Below are positions 8,041-32,388 of a DNA stretch of 64,000 bases, in pieces. Numbering within the stretch: the stretch's first letter is position 1; every line of letters starts with the position of its first letter. Under the pieces are notes generated by a model. That model was not told the DNA's origin, searched no databases, and saw only the letters and a list, made by a program, of their open reading frames with translations. A program made the position numbers and the translations under genes. Source of the DNA: Gilvimarinus xylanilyticus. Its GTDB lineage: Bacteria > Pseudomonadota > Gammaproteobacteria > Pseudomonadales > Cellvibrionaceae. Location: positions 1 through 64,000 of the forward strand of contig NZ_JAMFTH010000005.1 in assembly GCF_024195295.1 (NCBI RefSeq), in the 5' to 3' direction.

Positions 8041-8240
8041 TTTTCGCCCGTTTACAACTGAGCCGAGCGGAGGCCTATTTTAGGGGGTAAGCAAACAGGA
8101 TGTTTGCGCAAGTATCGCCAGGCCAGGGAAGGCCTGTCGATACGGCCCGCTAAAATAGGCCGGAGTGAGGGGACCCCGCCGGGGCCAGTTGTTGGGCGAG
8201 GTTTTTGGTTACTTTTTGCCGAAAAAAGTAACTCGCCACG
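8041..8240. repeat. Non-coding region with nested inverted repeats
   Basis: The gap between the COG3146 and lyase genes (7955-8297) holds no gene. It carries a perfect 12-bp inverted repeat GGCCTATTTTAG/CTAAAATAGGCC (8072-8083, 8150-8161). This encloses GTATCG/CGATAC (8112-8117, 8138-8143) and CAGGCC/GGCCTG (8119-8124, 8131-8136), so the block can form one long interrupted hairpin. A second hairpin, GTTACTTTTT with its partner at 8223-8232, follows. Both look like dispersed palindromic elements; other copies were not found in this window. Confidence 0.6.
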
Positions 8241-24367: not shown

Positions 24368-24593
24368 AAAAAGCTCGATGTAAACGCGTTAGTTTATCGG
24401 GGACGATCCAGGCAAGTAAACCATTCCCCGCTCACCTGGGGCGCAAACAGTGCACAGGCGAAGTTTCGTGCCCAATAATAAGGACTTTGGGGCGCGCCAA
24501 CTACCCGCCCATGTATGAATTGCCTTTAAAGTCAATCGCTTAGAAAACACAATAACATTTGGTATAGGCGTTGCTATATAAACTTGAGAAGTA

Positions 24594-24643
24594 TCCGGGA
24601 CGACCCGGAGCGGTCCGCCGTTTCTTTGTCTGGACGACCAGGC
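24594..24643 (+). ncRNA. Guanidine-II (mini-ykkC) riboswitch
   Basis: Two successive hairpins each with an ACGA loop, the defining feature of the mini-ykkC motif. Hairpin 1 is TCCGGG-ACGA-CCCGGA (24594-24609); hairpin 2 is GTCTGG-ACGA-CCAGGC (24628-24643, one G-T pair). The linker is 18 bases. In the known class each ACGR loop binds one guanidinium and the loops dock together. Downstream is AGGAGG (24670-24675) and a GTG start at 24685. The 5' half of hairpin 2 could instead pair with 24689-24697, covering the start region. The downstream SBP belongs to a family linked to guanidine/urea carboxylase loci, which agrees with the ligand. Confidence 0.88.
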
Positions 24644-24684
24644 GACGTTTTGAATATGACAACTTATTCAGGAGGTTGCCCCCA

Positions 24685-25719
24685 GTGTCAGACAAAGCAC
24701 CATCCACCCACACAGCGTTTACCACGTTGCCCTGTGTTGATATCGCCGGACTTTTTTCCAGCGATGTCGCCGTGCGCTACAAAGTAGCGCAGCAATTAGG
24801 TCAGGCCGCACGCGATGTTGGCTTTTTATACATTACTGGCCACGGCGTTTCCCCCGTTCTACGTCAGCGTTTGGTAGAGCGAGCGCAAGAGTATTTTGCC
24901 CGCCCGCTGGACGATAAAATGCGTTTTTATATCGGTCAGTCGGAAAACCACAGTGGCTATGTTCCCGAAGGTGAAGAAAAACTGGGCGACGGCGCAGTCG
25001 ACTGCAAAGAAGCTTACGACGTTAATTACGACTACCGCTCCGATCTCGGTCGCCGCCCCATGTTGGGCCCAACGCAATGGCCCGATGCGCCGGGCTTTCA
25101 AGAAGATGTGCATGCCTATTATCAAGCTGCACTCAATGTGGCCAATGCGTTATTTCGCGGTTTTGCACTCGCGCTCGAGCTGAAAGAAGACGCGTTAACC
25201 CGTCACGTAAATCACCCGCCTAGTCAACTGCGGATGATTCACTACCCCTATAATTCTAGCGCGCCATCCGATCGACCCGGCATTGGCGCCCACACCGATT
25301 ACGAATGCTTTACGATTTTGCTACCCACCGCTCCCGGCTTAGAAGTGCTAAACGGCGCAGGTGAATGGATTGATGTACCGCTTAAAGAAGACGCTTTTGT
25401 GATTAACATTGGCGACATGCTCGAGGTGTTAAGCAATGGCCAATTTGTCGCGACATCGCACCGGGTGCGTAAAGTAAAAGAAGAGCGTTACTCATTCCCT
25501 CTGTTTTGCGCTTGCGATTACGACACCGAGATTGCCCCGCTTGCATCGCTTACTCACAACAAACCCGAGCGTGAGTACATCAGTCTTAAATGCGGCGATC
25601 ACCTGTACGCTCAAACCATTCAGACGTTTACCTATTTAAAGGAAAGGTTGGCGCGCGGTGAAATCAGTATGCCCGAAAATTCACAGGCTACGGATAGCTT
25701 TGGCTATCACGGACGTTAG
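24685..25719 (+). CDS. 2-oxoglutarate/Fe(II)-dependent oxygenase under guanidine riboswitch
   Basis: Isopenicillin-N-synthase-like oxygenase, 344 residues. The GTG at 24685 has AGGAGG nine bases upstream; a longer frame from 24571 would translate the riboswitch and is rejected. N-terminal DIOX_N domain (LPCVDIAGLF...GFLYITGHGV), then the double-stranded beta-helix with iron ligands His203 and Asp205 (AHTDYECF) and His259 (TSHRV), and the 2-oxoglutarate anchor Arg268-x-Ser270. Relatives in this superfamily hydroxylate arginine or homoarginine and release guanidine, as shown for ethylene-forming enzyme and plant homoarginine hydroxylases. By inference this enzyme makes or consumes a guanidino compound. 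First gene of a three-gene operon. Confidence 0.88.
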   Translation: MSDKAPSTHTAFTTLPCVDIAGLFSSDVAVRYKVAQQLGQAARDVGFLYITGHGVSPVLRQRLVERAQEYFARPLDDKMRFYIGQSENHSGYVPEGEEKLGDGAVDCKEAYDVNYDYRSDLGRRPMLGPTQWPDAPGFQEDVHAYYQAALNVANALFRGFALALELKEDALTRHVNHPPSQLRMIHYPYNSSAPSDRPGIGAHTDYECFTILLPTAPGLEVLNGAGEWIDVPLKEDAFVINIGDMLEVLSNGQFVATSHRVRKVKEERYSFPLFCACDYDTEIAPLASLTHNKPEREYISLKCGDHLYAQTIQTFTYLKERLARGEISMPENSQATDSFGYHGR

Positions 25720-25727
25720 GAGGGCAT

Positions 25728-26675
25728 ATGCATTTACTGGATATTCTGGCAACGCATCCTAAGCCAGCGGACAAAGGTGTACCCGATTGGATGCTGGGTT
25801 ATTTTAAACGCCGCAGCATTAGTTTTGCCAATGGTGATACCGACACTCAAACCCATGTGTGCTGGCTACAGAGTCGTAACTTCACTATAGATTTGCGCTT
25901 GCCCATCGAATCAGAACAAGTGCCTGAAAAAAGGTGGGCCGACTACAGTGCCGCTGAGCTACGAACCTTAGGCAACTATGAGGGCTGGGTAGCCGATAGT
26001 GTCTGGAATGGCGAAACCCTAGCATGGAAAAACGAGGTGGCTTTGCAGCTGCACGGCCGCTGGCAAGAGCCCGCCTATTTACACCGCGTGGGAAATTGCA
26101 TGATGGAGTTTTGCCCCAGTGACGCCTATGCAGAAGACTGGCGGCTACAACCCAGTAAACCCGGACCGCTTGTGGGCTTGCGGCTTACTCGCGAGATTAA
26201 TAAAACCACAGGACAACAAATCCGTCGCGATGGTGGATTAATAACCTGCGGTGACTATGCCGCTTTGGTTTTGGGTCGGCCGAGCAGTATTGCCAGCAGC
26301 GACACAAATGCTTTGCGTGAAATGGCCGAGCAATCAGTCGGCGACCAGAACCGTTTAAGCGCGCTGTTTGAGTTTGAAACCTCGGTGGCAAAAGGCTCTT
26401 TGGCGGATGGCTATACCATTCAATTAAGCACTCGGCCCGACAGACAGGGTAAAACTTTAATCTCACTCGATGGATTTCGCCTAGCAGATGACCCCGATTC
26501 TTTAACGCAAACCTGTACTTCAGAGAACGGGGAAGTTATCGAGCGCCACTATCGGATTGATACGATTGAAACCGAAATACCCTATGCCCAACACACGTCC
26601 ACTACGGCCCAGGCCAGGCAGTGGTTTAACGCAGAAAGTGAAACCTTGTGCCGCTACACCCAACCTTGTTACTAA
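25728..26675 (+). CDS. Uncharacterised protein in the guanidine-riboswitch operon
   Basis: 315 residues with no signal peptide or membrane segment; not recognised. It starts eight bases after the oxygenase with a strong AGGAGG, so it is co-expressed. Visible features: PDWMLGYFKRRSISFANG, a HVCWLQSRNFTIDLRLP segment, NYEGWVAD, LHGRWQEPAYLHRVGNCMMEF, and a C-terminal beta-rich half. The repeated strand-turn pattern (a ligand-type Trp-Leu-Gln strand, an IDLRLP strand) suggests a lipocalin-like or double-barrel fold, which is only a guess. Position between the oxygenase and a solute-binding protein suggests a role with the same small molecule. Confidence 0.75.
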   Translation: MHLLDILATHPKPADKGVPDWMLGYFKRRSISFANGDTDTQTHVCWLQSRNFTIDLRLPIESEQVPEKRWADYSAAELRTLGNYEGWVADSVWNGETLAWKNEVALQLHGRWQEPAYLHRVGNCMMEFCPSDAYAEDWRLQPSKPGPLVGLRLTREINKTTGQQIRRDGGLITCGDYAALVLGRPSSIASSDTNALREMAEQSVGDQNRLSALFEFETSVAKGSLADGYTIQLSTRPDRQGKTLISLDGFRLADDPDSLTQTCTSENGEVIERHYRIDTIETEIPYAQHTSTTAQARQWFNAESETLCRYTQPCY

Positions 26676-26693: not shown

Positions 26694-27788
26694 ATGTCGA
26701 CTATTTATACCCGAATCAAAAAAAGCGCCTCACGCATAGTCAGCACGCTTTGTGTCGCTACTTGTGTATTAGGCGTTAACCAGGCTTATGCCCAGGAAAG
26801 GGACTCCTTTAAAATCGCCTGGTCAATTTACGCTGGCTGGATGCCCTGGGCCTATGCCGACGATAAAGGCATTATCGACAAGTGGGCCGATAAGTACGGC
26901 ATTGAAATTGAAGTGGTGCAAATGAACGATTACATCGAATCCATCAACCAGTTTACCGCTGGCGAATTCGATGGCTGCACCATGACCAACATGGACGCGC
27001 TGACCATTCCCGCCGCTTACGGCGTTGATACCACCGGATTAATCCTGGGCGACTACTCTAACGGTAACGATGGCTTAGTCCTTAAAAACGCCGACAGTAT
27101 CGAAGACATTAAAGGCCGCAACGTCAATTTAGTGGAACTGTCGGTATCCCATTATTTTCTCGCCCGTGCCCTGGATATGAACGGCATGTCTGAGCGTGAT
27201 GTAACCGTGGTGAACACCTCGGATGCCGATGCGGTATCCACCTTTATGACCAACGATGTTACCGCAGCCGCAGTTTGGAACCCGCAGCTGGGTATTATTT
27301 TGGAACGCGCCGAAGACGCCACCGAAGTGTTTACCTCAGCAGAAATCCCCGGTGAAATCATCGATATGATGGCGGTAAAAACCGAGGTTCTGGAAGCGAA
27401 CCCAGCGTTTGGTAAGGCCTTGGTCGGTGCCTGGTTTGAAACTCTCTCACTAATGCAGGGTGATTCAGAAAAAGCAAAAGAGGCCCGCACCTACATGGCC
27501 ACGCAAGCCGGTACCGACTTGGCGGGCTACGACGCCCAGCTTGACGATACCATGCTGTTCTATACCCCAGACTCCGCCTACGAGTTTGTCAGCAACAAGG
27601 ATTTGATAGGGTTTATGGACAAGGTTCGTCAGTTTTCTTTCGACAAAGGCCTGCTAGGCGAAGCCAGCCCCAGTCCAGACGTGGTGGGTATGGAATTCGA
27701 CGATGGCACCGTGTTGGGCGATAAAAGCAACATTAAGCTTCGCTTTGACGGCAGCTACGTCAAAATGGCAGCAGAGGGCGAGCTGTAA
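26694..27788 (+). CDS. ABC transporter solute-binding protein, urea-carboxylase-region type
   Basis: Periplasmic binding protein of the NMT1/THI5-like (NitT/TauT) fold, 364 residues, with a signal peptide ending YAQER. FKIAWSIYAGWMPWAYADDKGI, DYIESINQFTAGEFDGCTMTNMDAL and AVWNPQLGIILE match the family named for its place beside urea carboxylase genes, now known as guanidine carboxylase loci. GAGAGG lies 6-7 bases before the ATG. No permease or ATPase gene follows; the next gene is on the other strand. It must use membrane parts encoded elsewhere, or act as a sensor. Confidence 0.87.
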   Translation: MSTIYTRIKKSASRIVSTLCVATCVLGVNQAYAQERDSFKIAWSIYAGWMPWAYADDKGIIDKWADKYGIEIEVVQMNDYIESINQFTAGEFDGCTMTNMDALTIPAAYGVDTTGLILGDYSNGNDGLVLKNADSIEDIKGRNVNLVELSVSHYFLARALDMNGMSERDVTVVNTSDADAVSTFMTNDVTAAAVWNPQLGIILERAEDATEVFTSAEIPGEIIDMMAVKTEVLEANPAFGKALVGAWFETLSLMQGDSEKAKEARTYMATQAGTDLAGYDAQLDDTMLFYTPDSAYEFVSNKDLIGFMDKVRQFSFDKGLLGEASPSPDVVGMEFDDGTVLGDKSNIKLRFDGSYVKMAAEGEL

Positions 27789-27836: not shown

Positions 27837-30206
27837 TTAATCAATAGCCTTCTGGATCATTTTCTGTTCCAGCTGGGCAAAAGCAGCTTCCAATCGATCG
27901 CATGTCATGTCATAGCCGTAGAGGTTTATTTCACTATGACTAATCCGGTCGTTCACAATATAGGGCATGCCCGGGCAATACGCTTGTGCCAGGGCAACGG
28001 CCTGAGAAAAATCCGTTTTCTCCACTTCAAAATCAAACGCTTCATCGGCCAACATTGGGTCTGATGAGAGACTAAGCCAGGTATTTTCGTCGACAATATT
28101 GTAAGTTTCGGGGTTATCTATTAAAAACTGGCGGGCTTTTTGATCATCTGCAAGGCCAATTAAGTAGTCCGCTCGCGAACTCTGATATAGACGAGTGAAA
28201 AAATCTCGCAAGCCGCCTTTTAGGCTATCACCAGTGCTAGCGATATGATTTCTAAGTTGATTCTGGATATCCTTATCGGTTAACAGATAAGGTTTAAGAT
28301 CCTGAGGAACCTGATCGATCTTGTGTGCCAACTCTTCCTTAGAGTATCCCTCAAAGGCGCTCGCGGGCAAATATTCGGAAAGCTGATCACTGCTGACACC
28401 ACCAGAGGCCTGCATAACAATATCCACTGTACCTGCTTCGCTTGCCTGTATACCGAGGTTGCTATCGCCCAGCGTGTCCATACTATTATCGATAAAATCT
28501 TGCGCCAGCGATAAGGTTACGTTTGCCTGATATAAGCCCATTTGATAATGAAAGAAAACACCTTTCGATTTAGTACCAGCGGGATGCAGGCTGGTACTGA
28601 AATCGCCAAGGGTATGATTCATGCCTTCCGGTTCTAAACGGAACTTTAAGTGAACTTCATTTGTACTGAAAGTTGACATAGTGACGACTATATCTTCTTG
28701 ATCAATGCGCATAAACAGGCGATCGGTCAACACCTCTAACTTTCCCGAGGCAATATCGGCAAACATTCGGTCAGGAACGCTAAGCTCGACACGTCCTCTC
28801 AGATAGGTTTTTAAAATAATCGGTTGAGAATAGCCGGGCAAGTCAACATTGTAGGTTTCTCTGGAGTTTATGGGACTCTCTAGTAACGCAAAAAACTGTT
28901 GATGATGACTATTAAAAATTATATTTTTTACCTTATCCCACTCAGAATCACTTAGATGTTCCCACTGTTCTCCACGGGGCATATCGGACCAACCGTAATT
29001 TTGATAAATGTTATCTCGCAAATAGTATGAAAAGTAAAATCTTTCATTTATGTCCAATAGTTTAAACTCGTCCAATAATTCTATGCTCGTAATAATTCGT
29101 ATCTTATTATTGCCGCTGTACATACCCTCTTTAAATTCATTCATAAGACTTTCAACAGCGGAATCGCTGAGCGTGGTGATTTCAGGGTATTTCTCTCCAG
29201 CAAGACTGCTGTGGGTATAGAAGCTCGCGCATAGCAGGACGATAATGCTCAGCAAGCTCGACAAGAAACCTTGAGGTGTGGAAGTAACATGATGTTGGGA
29301 ATTAAAAATCCGCTTTACTCGAGCCAGTAAATGCTTGGGCTGGTTATTAAAAGCCATGGCTATTTCTCCTTGTAATGACAGTTCCGAAAATTGTTGCAGT
29401 GATCTTGCGTAAAGCATGGGGTCACCGCAGCAGGCGACAGCGGCATCGTCGCAGGCGTTTTCTCGCTCAGCGTCAAGCTGCTTGCAAATCCATAGAAAGG
29501 GCAGGTTAAAAAAATACAGCGATTTACAGAATTGTTGAATTAATCCAATCAGAAAATCGTGGCGACGAATATGAGCCATTTCGTGCAAAAGAATGGCCTC
29601 AATTTGCTCCTCGGGCAGTCGTGTAAGCATGCCAACCGGTAAAAGAATAACGGGCTTTAAGTGTCCGATAACACAGGGAGTGGCTAGATAATGGCTAATT
29701 TTAAGTATGACCCGTTGGTTTAGCTTGAGTCGCTCGGCGAGGGTGTTGACCCTTTTTTGCCAAAGGTCGGGGGCGCGATAGCTTAGGTGGTTTTTATGGT
29801 GAAAACACTGATAAACATTGACACTGTAGCGAAGTAAAAACACACAGCTACCTACCAGCCACAGCGCTACAACCCAGTTTAAATGCTGGTTTAACGCACT
29901 TACCACTGATGGGGTCTCGGGGGCGGCGGTCACTACAGCGCCCCACGGCATTATCCCAATAACACGAGGCGCCTCTTGCGGGCTGGCTCCAGCGTAATAG
30001 ATAAATGTCGCGATGCTAGACGCCAGGCATACCACCAGCGCCAGTAGTGAAGCGATATAGCGTTTATTCGCCGCCTGGGGGCGGATGAACTTTAACGCAA
30101 CGGCCAACGCGATCGCGGCGGCGGCGCATTGCCATAAAGAGTGCAGAAGGGTCCAACCCAATGCGTACAGCAGTGGCTCGCCCAGCCATTGGCTGAGAAT
30201 ATTCAT
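27837..30206 (-). CDS. BlaR1/MecR1-like M56 membrane metallopeptidase
   Basis: 789 residues. The N-terminal part has four membrane helices and a zinc protease core: VIGHLKPVILLPVGML, ILLHEMAHIRRHD (HExxH-type motif) and ENACDDAAV, as in M56 signal transducers that cleave BlaI-type repressors. After the last helix (LLSIIVLLCASFYTHS) comes an extracytoplasmic region of about 430 residues that does not show the penicillin-binding motifs of BlaR1 and is not recognised. It overlaps the repressor gene by four bases. The signal sensed is unknown and need not be a beta-lactam. Confidence 0.85.
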   Translation of the reverse strand: MNILSQWLGEPLLYALGWTLLHSLWQCAAAAIALAVALKFIRPQAANKRYIASLLALVVCLASSIATFIYYAGASPQEAPRVIGIMPWGAVVTAAPETPSVVSALNQHLNWVVALWLVGSCVFLLRYSVNVYQCFHHKNHLSYRAPDLWQKRVNTLAERLKLNQRVILKISHYLATPCVIGHLKPVILLPVGMLTRLPEEQIEAILLHEMAHIRRHDFLIGLIQQFCKSLYFFNLPFLWICKQLDAERENACDDAAVACCGDPMLYARSLQQFSELSLQGEIAMAFNNQPKHLLARVKRIFNSQHHVTSTPQGFLSSLLSIIVLLCASFYTHSSLAGEKYPEITTLSDSAVESLMNEFKEGMYSGNNKIRIITSIELLDEFKLLDINERFYFSYYLRDNIYQNYGWSDMPRGEQWEHLSDSEWDKVKNIIFNSHHQQFFALLESPINSRETYNVDLPGYSQPIILKTYLRGRVELSVPDRMFADIASGKLEVLTDRLFMRIDQEDIVVTMSTFSTNEVHLKFRLEPEGMNHTLGDFSTSLHPAGTKSKGVFFHYQMGLYQANVTLSLAQDFIDNSMDTLGDSNLGIQASEAGTVDIVMQASGGVSSDQLSEYLPASAFEGYSKEELAHKIDQVPQDLKPYLLTDKDIQNQLRNHIASTGDSLKGGLRDFFTRLYQSSRADYLIGLADDQKARQFLIDNPETYNIVDENTWLSLSSDPMLADEAFDFEVEKTDFSQAVALAQAYCPGMPYIVNDRISHSEINLYGYDMTCDRLEAAFAQLEQKMIQKAID

Positions 30207-30574
30207 TGCTTATCCTCCAGGTCGTCCAGAAACGCCCGAATGTCGTCTATCTCGCGGCGGGAGACCTTTTTATTACCCAGCAGCGACATCACCAAATTCG
30301 ACGCGGACCCCCCAAAAGTGGACTGCACGACATTGTCCAACAAACTCGATTTTGCGTCAGACTCTTCGATAAGGGGCCGGTAAACGTGGCTGCGACCCAC
30401 TCGCTCACGCTCCAGCAGGCCTTTTTGATGCATCAGCTGCATTAGCTTTAGCGTGCCGGTATAGCTCACTTGTTTGTGCTGATTAAGCCTATCGTTAACC
30501 GTCTGCGCAGTCGCTTCCTTCTCAGCCCACAATATGCTGAGAATTTCCCATTCGGACTGAGTGGGTCGCTTCAT
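30203..30574 (-). CDS. BlaI/MecI/CopY family repressor
   Basis: Winged-helix repressor of about 123 residues. The start MKRPTQSEWEILSILW at 30574 has GGGAG upstream and matches family starts; an extension to 30637 would run through the operators. Typical parts: SEWEILSILWAEKEATAQTVNDRL, VSYTGTLKLMQLMHQKGLLERERVGRSHVYRPL, then a C-terminal dimerisation region. By family knowledge it is inactivated by cleavage by the co-encoded M56 protease. Confidence 0.92.
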   Translation of the reverse strand: MKRPTQSEWEILSILWAEKEATAQTVNDRLNQHKQVSYTGTLKLMQLMHQKGLLERERVGRSHVYRPLIEESDAKSSLLDNVVQSTFGGSASNLVMSLLGNKKVSRREIDDIRAFLDDLEDKQ

Positions 30575-30589
30575 GATTTCTCCCGTAAA

Positions 30590-30629
30590 TACGAACATCT
30601 TCGTATTTAATTTACGAAACAGTTCGTAA
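30590..30629 (-). promoter_or_regulatory. Paired operators for the BlaI-like repressor
   Basis: Two perfect palindromes directly before the repressor gene: TACGAA-CATC-TTCGTA (30590-30605) and TTACGAA-ACAG-TTCGTAA (30612-30629). Their centres are 23 bp apart, about two helical turns, suiting two dimers on one face. BlaI-family operators have the form TAC-inverted-GTA, so autoregulation is likely. Confidence 0.8.
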
Positions 30630-30697
30630 TAACGCAAATACGCATTTGGAATAAAAAGAAAGGGCTTTTAGAAGTATTATCCAAAAAAGGGGGGGGA

Positions 30698-32097: not shown

Positions 32098-32151
32098 TGC
32101 TTAAATTTCCTTTTGTTTATTATTTTCCAGCCGTCCAATTACCGAAGTATT

Positions 32152-32388
32152 TCAGATATTTTGTGACGGCCAGGCAGAGTGTTTATCCGCCCATTTCATG
32201 GCCGTCCATTGCCACACCGGCAAAAGGAATACCAGCCCCGCCAGGTAATTGCCCGAGACGGCGCTTGCAACGACGATAACAAAGCTAACCATAAGCAGGA
32301 CAATCAGTTGCTGGATGGCGGCGTCTCGGGAACGAATACCGGTTAAGCCAATGTAAGCCCACCAGGGCATGTCGTTCAATTTTTTCAT
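32152..32388 (-). CDS. Small membrane protein
   Basis: 78 residues with a strong AAAGGAGC site seven bases before the ATG. MPWWAYIGLTGIRSRDAAI is followed by two closely spaced membrane helices (LIVLLMVSFVIVVASAVSG, YLAGLVFLLPVWQWTAM). Not recognised beyond that; the same-strand PLDc_N-like gene follows 54 bases on. Confidence 0.65.
   Translation of the reverse strand: MKKLNDMPWWAYIGLTGIRSRDAAIQQLIVLLMVSFVIVVASAVSGNYLAGLVFLLPVWQWTAMKWADKHSAWPSQNI

Follow-up and report, generated by a model that had tools for sequence, protein, structure and literature searches.

A variant guanidine-II-type element as a candidate translational switch of a probable methylguanidine demethylation operon in Gilvimarinus xylanilyticus

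According to the accessible parts of a 2025 report (PMC12508155), methylguanidine is hydroxylated in Vreelandella boliviensis by MgdH, and the product is split by MgdL, which belongs to no known family and needs D49 and R51, as shown by mutation. The same parts place the mgdH/mgdL pair in an operon with a guanidine-II (Gd-II) riboswitch, and this RNA binds guanidine and methylguanidine alike, with KD values of 93 and 83 uM. The Gd-II pocket has an opening that accommodates a methyl group (PMC5486947, available in part), and the published Gd-II model assigns the anti-Shine-Dalgarno role to the linker (PMC7544219 and PMC9094411, both available in part).

Here we analysed a 64,000-nucleotide stretch of a Gilvimarinus xylanilyticus contig (the window), in which a preliminary description made from the sequence had noticed a mini-ykkC/guanidine-II layout heading an oxygenase operon. 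The direct sequence basis of our reading comprises two ACGR hairpins, a hairpin 3' of the second of them (P2) that pairs with the Shine-Dalgarno (SD) sequence, and the order mgdH-mgdL-substrate-binding protein gene, which recurs in relatives. We consider, with a probability of about 0.82, that the element acts as a translational ON switch of the guanidine-II type and controls a stand-alone operon for methylguanidine demethylation.

The hairpin pair and its relatives

The first hairpin, P1, lies at 24594..24609 on the plus strand and closes an ACGA loop with six pairs (TCCGGG-ACGA-CCCGGA). P2 lies at 24628..24643 on the same strand and has an ACGA loop over six pairs, one of them U.G and the third U-A (GUCUGG-ACGA-CCAGGC). 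Both were read from the sequence and from covariance models, and the gap of 18 nt between them is as first described. Between P1 and P2, a linker hairpin (GCGG/CCGU) is predicted at 24610..24621 on the plus strand by folding and partial covariation. The AGGAGG and the GTG start that had been noted after the hairpins are likewise in place: the SD sequence was read at 24670..24675 on the plus strand, and the GTG at 24685-24687 opens the 344-aa frame of mgdH, which ends at 25719; the mechanical open reading frame list puts the start of mgdH at an upstream TTG at 24571. Two ACGR-loop hairpins, G-C loop-closing pairs and a linker within 7-40 nt, features expected of guanidine-II elements, are present together. 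A search of both strands of the window for ACGR hairpin pairs with stems of 4 bp or longer and 4-bp cores 7-40 nt apart finds P1 and P2 alone; in 100 dinucleotide shuffles, pairs with 4+4 bp arise 0.05 times per window and those with 6+5 bp 0.01 times. With the gap limit raised to 60 nt, one extra weak pair was found at 32127-32209 on the minus strand.

The Rfam model for Guanidine-II (RF01068) gives 24592-24642 a score of 24.2 bits, with an E value of 0.0037 for 221 bases. The score is below the model's gathering score of 32 bits, and a whole-window Rfam scan at gathering score therefore does not list the hairpin pair; the sole match of the window at gathering score is a TwoAYGGAY RNA at 8065-8168 on the plus strand (45.9 bits, cut-off 43). 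Dismissal by the gathering score alone is countered by a leave-one-out covariance model trained on 13 leaders, none of them the window's, which scores 24592-24646 at 67.9 bits (E 2.2e-14) and the runner-up place in the window at 11.5 bits. None of the 17 mgdH leader elements described below reaches the RF01068 gathering score, which 10 further Gd-II elements attained in these scans. Two further matches were rejected for scoring far under their cut-offs, a FourU thermometer (12.2 bits against a cut-off of 60), which coincides with the SD-pairing hairpin, and sR30 (10.2 bits against 38). In the mgdH elements, the ACGR loops and the two loop-closing G-C pairs of the published pocket are unchanged; the loops are invariant but for A or G at the fourth place, and the stems covary. 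The preliminary description had proposed a covariance search and a look at loop conservation as checks: the first gives a match, sub-cut-off with RF01068 and well beyond chance with the leave-one-out model, and the second shows both ACGR loops kept in 16 further loci directly 5' of the same gene. The reading of the element as a member of the guanidine-II class is supported by these comparisons. The standard layout that had been assumed with it did not hold: the third pair of P2 is U-A, the linker is largely structured and the anti-Shine-Dalgarno strand appears to have moved.

An element stands directly 5' of mgdH in 17 of the 27 mgdH-mgdL loci found, the window counted, across several genera (window, L003, L004, L006, L007, L031-L039, L044, L063 and L064); named hosts are Gilvimarinus chinensis (L003), Pseudomonas (L006, L007) and an Acinetobacter plasmid (L044). 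At the other 10 loci (L005, L040, L043, L045, L065, L068, L069, L070, L073 and L074) no element was found directly before mgdH, and four of these loci (L005, L065, L073 and L074) carry Gd-I or ordinary Gd-II elements at other places. The first motif regular expression misses elements with ACGR inside the linker, and the comparison of 17 with 40 elements given below used another method. A scan of 293 genomes of the order with model R1 gave 10 strong matches (at least 50 bits), each of them before mgdH. Since eight of the 10 are members of the model, from which only the window was held out, and G191 has a member's core, this association with mgdH is not independent proof. No strong R1 match without mgdH was found in the 293 order genomes nor, the same three genomes aside, in 349 phylum genomes. 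Weaker matches (30-37 bits) precede gca-like genes in L085 and L086 and what looks by eye like a cgdA relative in L116-L118. R1 gives the L044 element 22.8 bits and shows no convincing element at the remaining mgdH loci tested.

Several of the loci surveyed have features of their own. In each of the Pseudomonas loci L006 and L007, five guanidine-type elements lie in 17 kb: three of Gd-I, the variant before mgdH and a Gd-II element on the gca side. On the Acinetobacter sp. NCu2D-2 plasmid (L044, 6985-9220 and 9266-12093), mgdH-mgdL are followed by an SMR gene (PLSDB: qacG-like, 43% identity), with ABC permease and ATPase genes upstream, binding protein and atzF genes downstream, and a weak Gd-II-like pair before mgdH. 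Two mgdH-like and two binding-protein genes stand in tandem beside an MgdL-like gene at L069 (3753-8929). Distant MgdL-like proteins (24-27% identity) at L041, L042 and L071 adjoin ABC permease/ATPase genes, and no mgdH relative was found in the stretch fetched. The cassette of the window is nearer to that of a genome of another family (L031 in G212; MgdH 79%, MgdL 69%) than to its counterpart in a genome of the same genus (L032 in G057; 71% and 55%). There are hints in the sequences that the switch and the genes may have moved together by horizontal transfer.

Variant structure, expression platform and promoter

The mgdH elements were compared with 40 Gd-II elements before SMR (16), gca (23) and cgdA (1) genes, a set that leans to the consensus because it was drawn mostly from the best-scoring Rfam matches (30 loci kept, L086 dropped as unparsable); both sets are phylogenetically non-independent. 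The third pair of P2 is U-A in 17/17 mgdH elements and in 0/40 of the others, and the contrast holds for gca and mgdH elements within one locus (L006, L007, L034, L036, L063). The P1 core CGGG (CGGGACGRCCCG) occurs in 16/17 mgdH elements versus 4/40 others. The linker can pair with itself over 4 bp or more in 13/17 mgdH, 5/16 SMR, 2/23 gca and 0/1 cgdA elements, and it folds at -4 kcal/mol or better in 12/17, 3/16, 0/23 and 0/1, respectively. In alignment A2 of 13 leaders, the covariation score of the structure was 0.238 against 0.083 in shuffles (0/500 reach it), and pairs with changes in both partners were not notably more numerous than in shuffles (186/500 reach the count). Three of the four linker-helix pairs show changes on both sides in A2 and 65.9% of the cells are paired, with the linker pairing of L037-L039 lying one column off and scored there as unpaired. 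By these sequence features, the 17 elements directly before mgdH are a distinct structural Gd-II variant, new and so far found only there. The accessible literature, which covers subscription papers to a limited extent, yielded no description of this variant or of a stand-alone mgdH operon headed directly by a Gd-II element.

An SD-sequestering hairpin is predicted at 24641..24680 on the plus strand from folding and from covariation of its outer stem (24641-24646/24675-24680; inner stem UUUUGAAUA/UAUUCAGGA). The 5' strand of this hairpin shares bases with the 3' arm of P2. In the outer stem, 91.7% of 60 cells are paired over 10 distinct leaders, with G-C, A-U and U-A at one pair. Its covariation score is 0.470 versus 0.274 in shuffles (0/500), and pairs changed on both sides are not above shuffles (140/500 reach the count). 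By duplex energy with the SD sequence, the stretch 3' of P2 beats the linker in 8 of 10 mgdH leaders including the window (-10.3 versus -4.9), whereas the linker is better in 15/16 SMR elements; gca elements are mixed, the linker being better in 8/13, with 3/16 gca elements lacking an SD sequence by the rule used and L085 counted among gca. The stretch 3' of P2 is longer in mgdH elements than in the other types, and this works in its favour. Judging from the sequences, the SD-pairing strand appears to lie 3' of P2 and not in the linker, a departure from the published model. A fully zipped P2 competes with the SD stem because the first base of the stem is the last base of the P2 core, and P2 is absent from the minimum-free-energy structure in 14/17 leaders, fitting an OFF state. 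When the 4-bp cores of both P1 and P2 were forced to pair, the SD sequence of the window was no freer than before (unpaired fraction 0.17 in either case), and it was not released in most relatives either. As constrained folding gave no SD release, we infer the switching step, in line with the platform of Huang et al. (PMC5486947, available in part).

Whether the departures from the Rfam consensus carry functional meaning is, in our estimate, an even bet, since the window may hold an ordinary guanidine-II riboswitch shaped by lineage drift. Drift would fit the unchanged pocket of ACGR loops and two loop-closing G-C pairs, the V. boliviensis-type loci L073 and L074, in which mgdHL stand under an ordinary Gd-II element, and the kinship of the mgdH leaders, among which L006, L007 and L034 have one aptamer core and L037-L039 belong to one genus. 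It is harder to reconcile with a U-A pair that is in every mgdH leader and in none of the SMR, gca and cgdA elements, even within the same locus, or with an SD-pairing strand shifted from the linker, which pairs better in the SMR elements, to the 3' side of P2.

The -24/-12 promoter consensus of sigma-54 comprises 13 letters with the core GG-N10-GC. An element resembling it, with 10/13 consensus letters, lies at 24559..24575 on the plus strand. Such a site, with 10-11/13 letters and 17-22 nt before the P1 core, occurs in 7/17 leaders (window, L003, L004, L031, L032, L033, L035); the Pseudomonas-type leaders L006, L007, L034 and L063 have it at 37-38 nt, L036 has one with 9 letters at 43 nt, and in five of the 17 leaders the site is poor or none was found. 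A score of at least 10 arises by chance in 2% of 120-nt stretches. The site of the window is weak alone, and its conserved place is the evidence. It is reasonable to suppose that the mgdH operon is under nitrogen control via this sigma-54-like site.

Operon genes and the guanidine pathway

The first gene encodes a 2-oxoglutarate/Fe(II) oxygenase, as had been stated: the 344-aa product of mgdH (24685..25719, plus strand), a probable methylguanidine hydroxylase, has the Pfam domains DIOX_N and 2OG-FeII_Oxy (run from 24688) and is 58-59% identical to the MgdH of locus L074. Its residues H202, D204, H258 and R267 (numbered from 24688) are invariant in 17/17 sequences. L074, in genome G073 of the same order, has the V. 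boliviensis gene order (ABC-cgdA-cgdB-[Gd-II]-gca-mgdH-mgdL-...-atzF, with atzF behind other genes), and the catalytic Asp and Arg of its MgdL fall precisely on D49/R51. The second gene, mgdL (25728..26675, plus strand), encodes a probable N-(hydroxymethyl)guanidine lyase, as judged from D55/R57 and a profile comparison with the short form; it is a long form of 315 aa, compared with 225 aa in the V. boliviensis-type L074. This MgdL matches no Pfam or NCBIfam family at E 0.001 and is about 22% identical to the L074 short form. D55/R57 are invariant in 21/21 relatives and align with D49/R51 of the short form, and the two forms are homologous by hhalign (probability 99.7, E 1.2e-26). Its structure model is beta-rich and confident (pLDDT 93.2), a beta-barrel fold being expected of MgdL; Foldseek found no PDB match at E 0.001 and a partial lipocalin-like match to 4qrl (E 0.017, target TM 0.68).

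The third gene (26694..27788, plus strand) encodes an ABC substrate-binding protein of the guanidine/urea-carboxylase type (TIGR03427, 520 bits, cut-off 333.9). The open reading frame list of the window has no permease or ATPase gene between it and a minus-strand gene at 27837-30206. Downstream of the operon and convergent with it, a large membrane-peptidase-like frame and a small frame at 27837-30637 on the minus strand resemble, by eye, a BlaR1/BlaI pair.

Taken together, the operon very probably demethylates methylguanidine and makes its nitrogen usable. The preliminary description had called an oxygenase an uncommon target for this class. The oxygenase stands, and the target is explained as a very probable MgdH followed by MgdL, because this enzyme pair and its Gd-II operon are already known from V. 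boliviensis, as far as the accessible parts of the source go (PMC12508155). We regard it as very unlikely that the oxygenase instead makes guanidine from arginine or homoarginine, like the ethylene-forming enzyme or plant homoarginine-6-hydroxylase, with no methylguanidine demethylation: these enzymes belong to the same superfamily and the top PDB match, 9ovh, has a chain named ethylene/succinate-forming enzyme (E 3.8e-48), but the identity of 58-59% to MgdH of a V. boliviensis-type operon and the adjoining MgdL relative with its catalytic pair speak against it. The ethylene-forming-enzyme identity was set aside given the L074 match. Less credible still is that the two hairpins are a chance likeness or a protein-binding or RNA-processing site and no riboswitch, as the sub-cut-off Rfam score and the general frequency of hairpins might suggest, since shuffles giving at most 0.05 pairs per window reject a chance origin, the loops are invariant save A/G at the fourth place while the stems covary over the leaders, and the element lies directly 5' of a guanidine-family enzyme gene.

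The rest of the guanidine pathway is encoded elsewhere in the genome. Contig C7 carries genes for a binding protein, a permease, an ATPase, UAAP1/UAAP2, which are cgdA/cgdB-like by position and family, and the guanidine carboxylase gca (1852.5 bits), with Gd-I before the binding protein and Gd-II before gca. The allophanate hydrolase gene atzF is on contig C1 (830.7 bits), and the gene of a SugE-type SMR exporter (134.4 bits, cut-off 126) has the third Gd-II element before it. With Gd-II elements before SMR, gca and mgdH, one cell therefore has such elements for export, carboxylation and demethylation. The variant sits in an operon separate from the guanidine carboxylase, which is new, and we infer that the binding protein of the mgdH operon shares the C7 transporter.

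Proposed mechanism and comparison with known systems

Under nitrogen limitation, a sigma-54 promoter would make the mgdH transcript. Without ligand, the 5' arm of P2 would pair elsewhere and the strand just 3' of P2 would pair with the SD region, leaving mgdH poorly translated. Guanidine or methylguanidine would make the P1 and P2 loops kiss and hold P2, which would weaken the sequestering structure and allow MgdH, MgdL and the binding protein to be made. Because the pocket letters are intact and published Gd-II RNAs bind both ligands about equally well, as stated in the accessible parts of PMC12508155 and PMC5486947, the mgdH-element RNA is likely to bind both guanidine and methylguanidine, and a preference for methylguanidine is possible. 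A bolder proposal, which we consider unlikely, is that the mgdH-linked variant is a subclass tuned to methylguanidine, in which the U-A pair, the rigid hairpin linker and the separate platform shift the response, so that export, carboxylation and demethylation in this cell would each be under a Gd-II switch of its own tuning, three in all. With such tuning, the demethylase would be made on methylguanidine itself and not on guanidine derived from it.

If the main reading of a translational ON switch is right, the variant travels with one enzyme pair and is missed by the standard Rfam model, and guanidine-II counts and gene lists would be incomplete precisely for the methylguanidine branch. Methylguanidine use would then extend beyond halophiles to relatives in sea and soil (Gilvimarinus, Pseudomonas). 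The gca and mgdH elements of one genome would also offer natural paired aptamers for the effects of linker structure and hairpin order on ligand preference and dynamic range.

Like RF01068 elements, the mgdH elements have two ACGR-loop hairpins before the ribosome-binding site and G-C loop-closing pairs, and both are probable translational ON switches. They differ in that the window element scores 24.2 bits against a gathering score of 32 and has a P2 U-A pair absent from the 40 compared elements. The RF01068 linker is described as flexible with a putative anti-Shine-Dalgarno strand (PMC7544219 and PMC9094411, in their accessible parts), whereas the linker of the mgdH elements is mostly self-paired; the distance from P2 to the SD sequence has a median of 19 nt in mgdH elements versus 6-7 nt in the others, and the SD-pairing strand of the former probably lies 3' of P2.

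A similar platform is that of the G. violaceus Gd-II riboswitch (Huang et al. 2017, PMC5486947, available in part), in which a stem-loop over P2 and the ribosome-binding site is exclusive with the folded riboswitch. It was proposed for one RNA, whereas 11 mgdH leaders, 10 of them distinct, conserve the stem and show covariation in it. The guanidine-IV variant Gd4v, with a different ligand of unknown identity (PMC9788692, available in part), is a precedent for a guanidine riboswitch variant with its own gene association; it belongs to another RNA class and binds guanidine weakly, whereas the mgdH element keeps the known pocket letters. With the gca-mgdH-mgdL operon of V. boliviensis, as described in the accessible parts of PMC12508155, the window shares the MgdH and MgdL relatives, the ABC binding protein, Gd-II and a guanidine carboxylase pathway in one cell. 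There, mgdHL lie inside the gca operon with Gd-II before gca; in the window, mgdHL form their own operon with their own element, on a contig other than that of gca.
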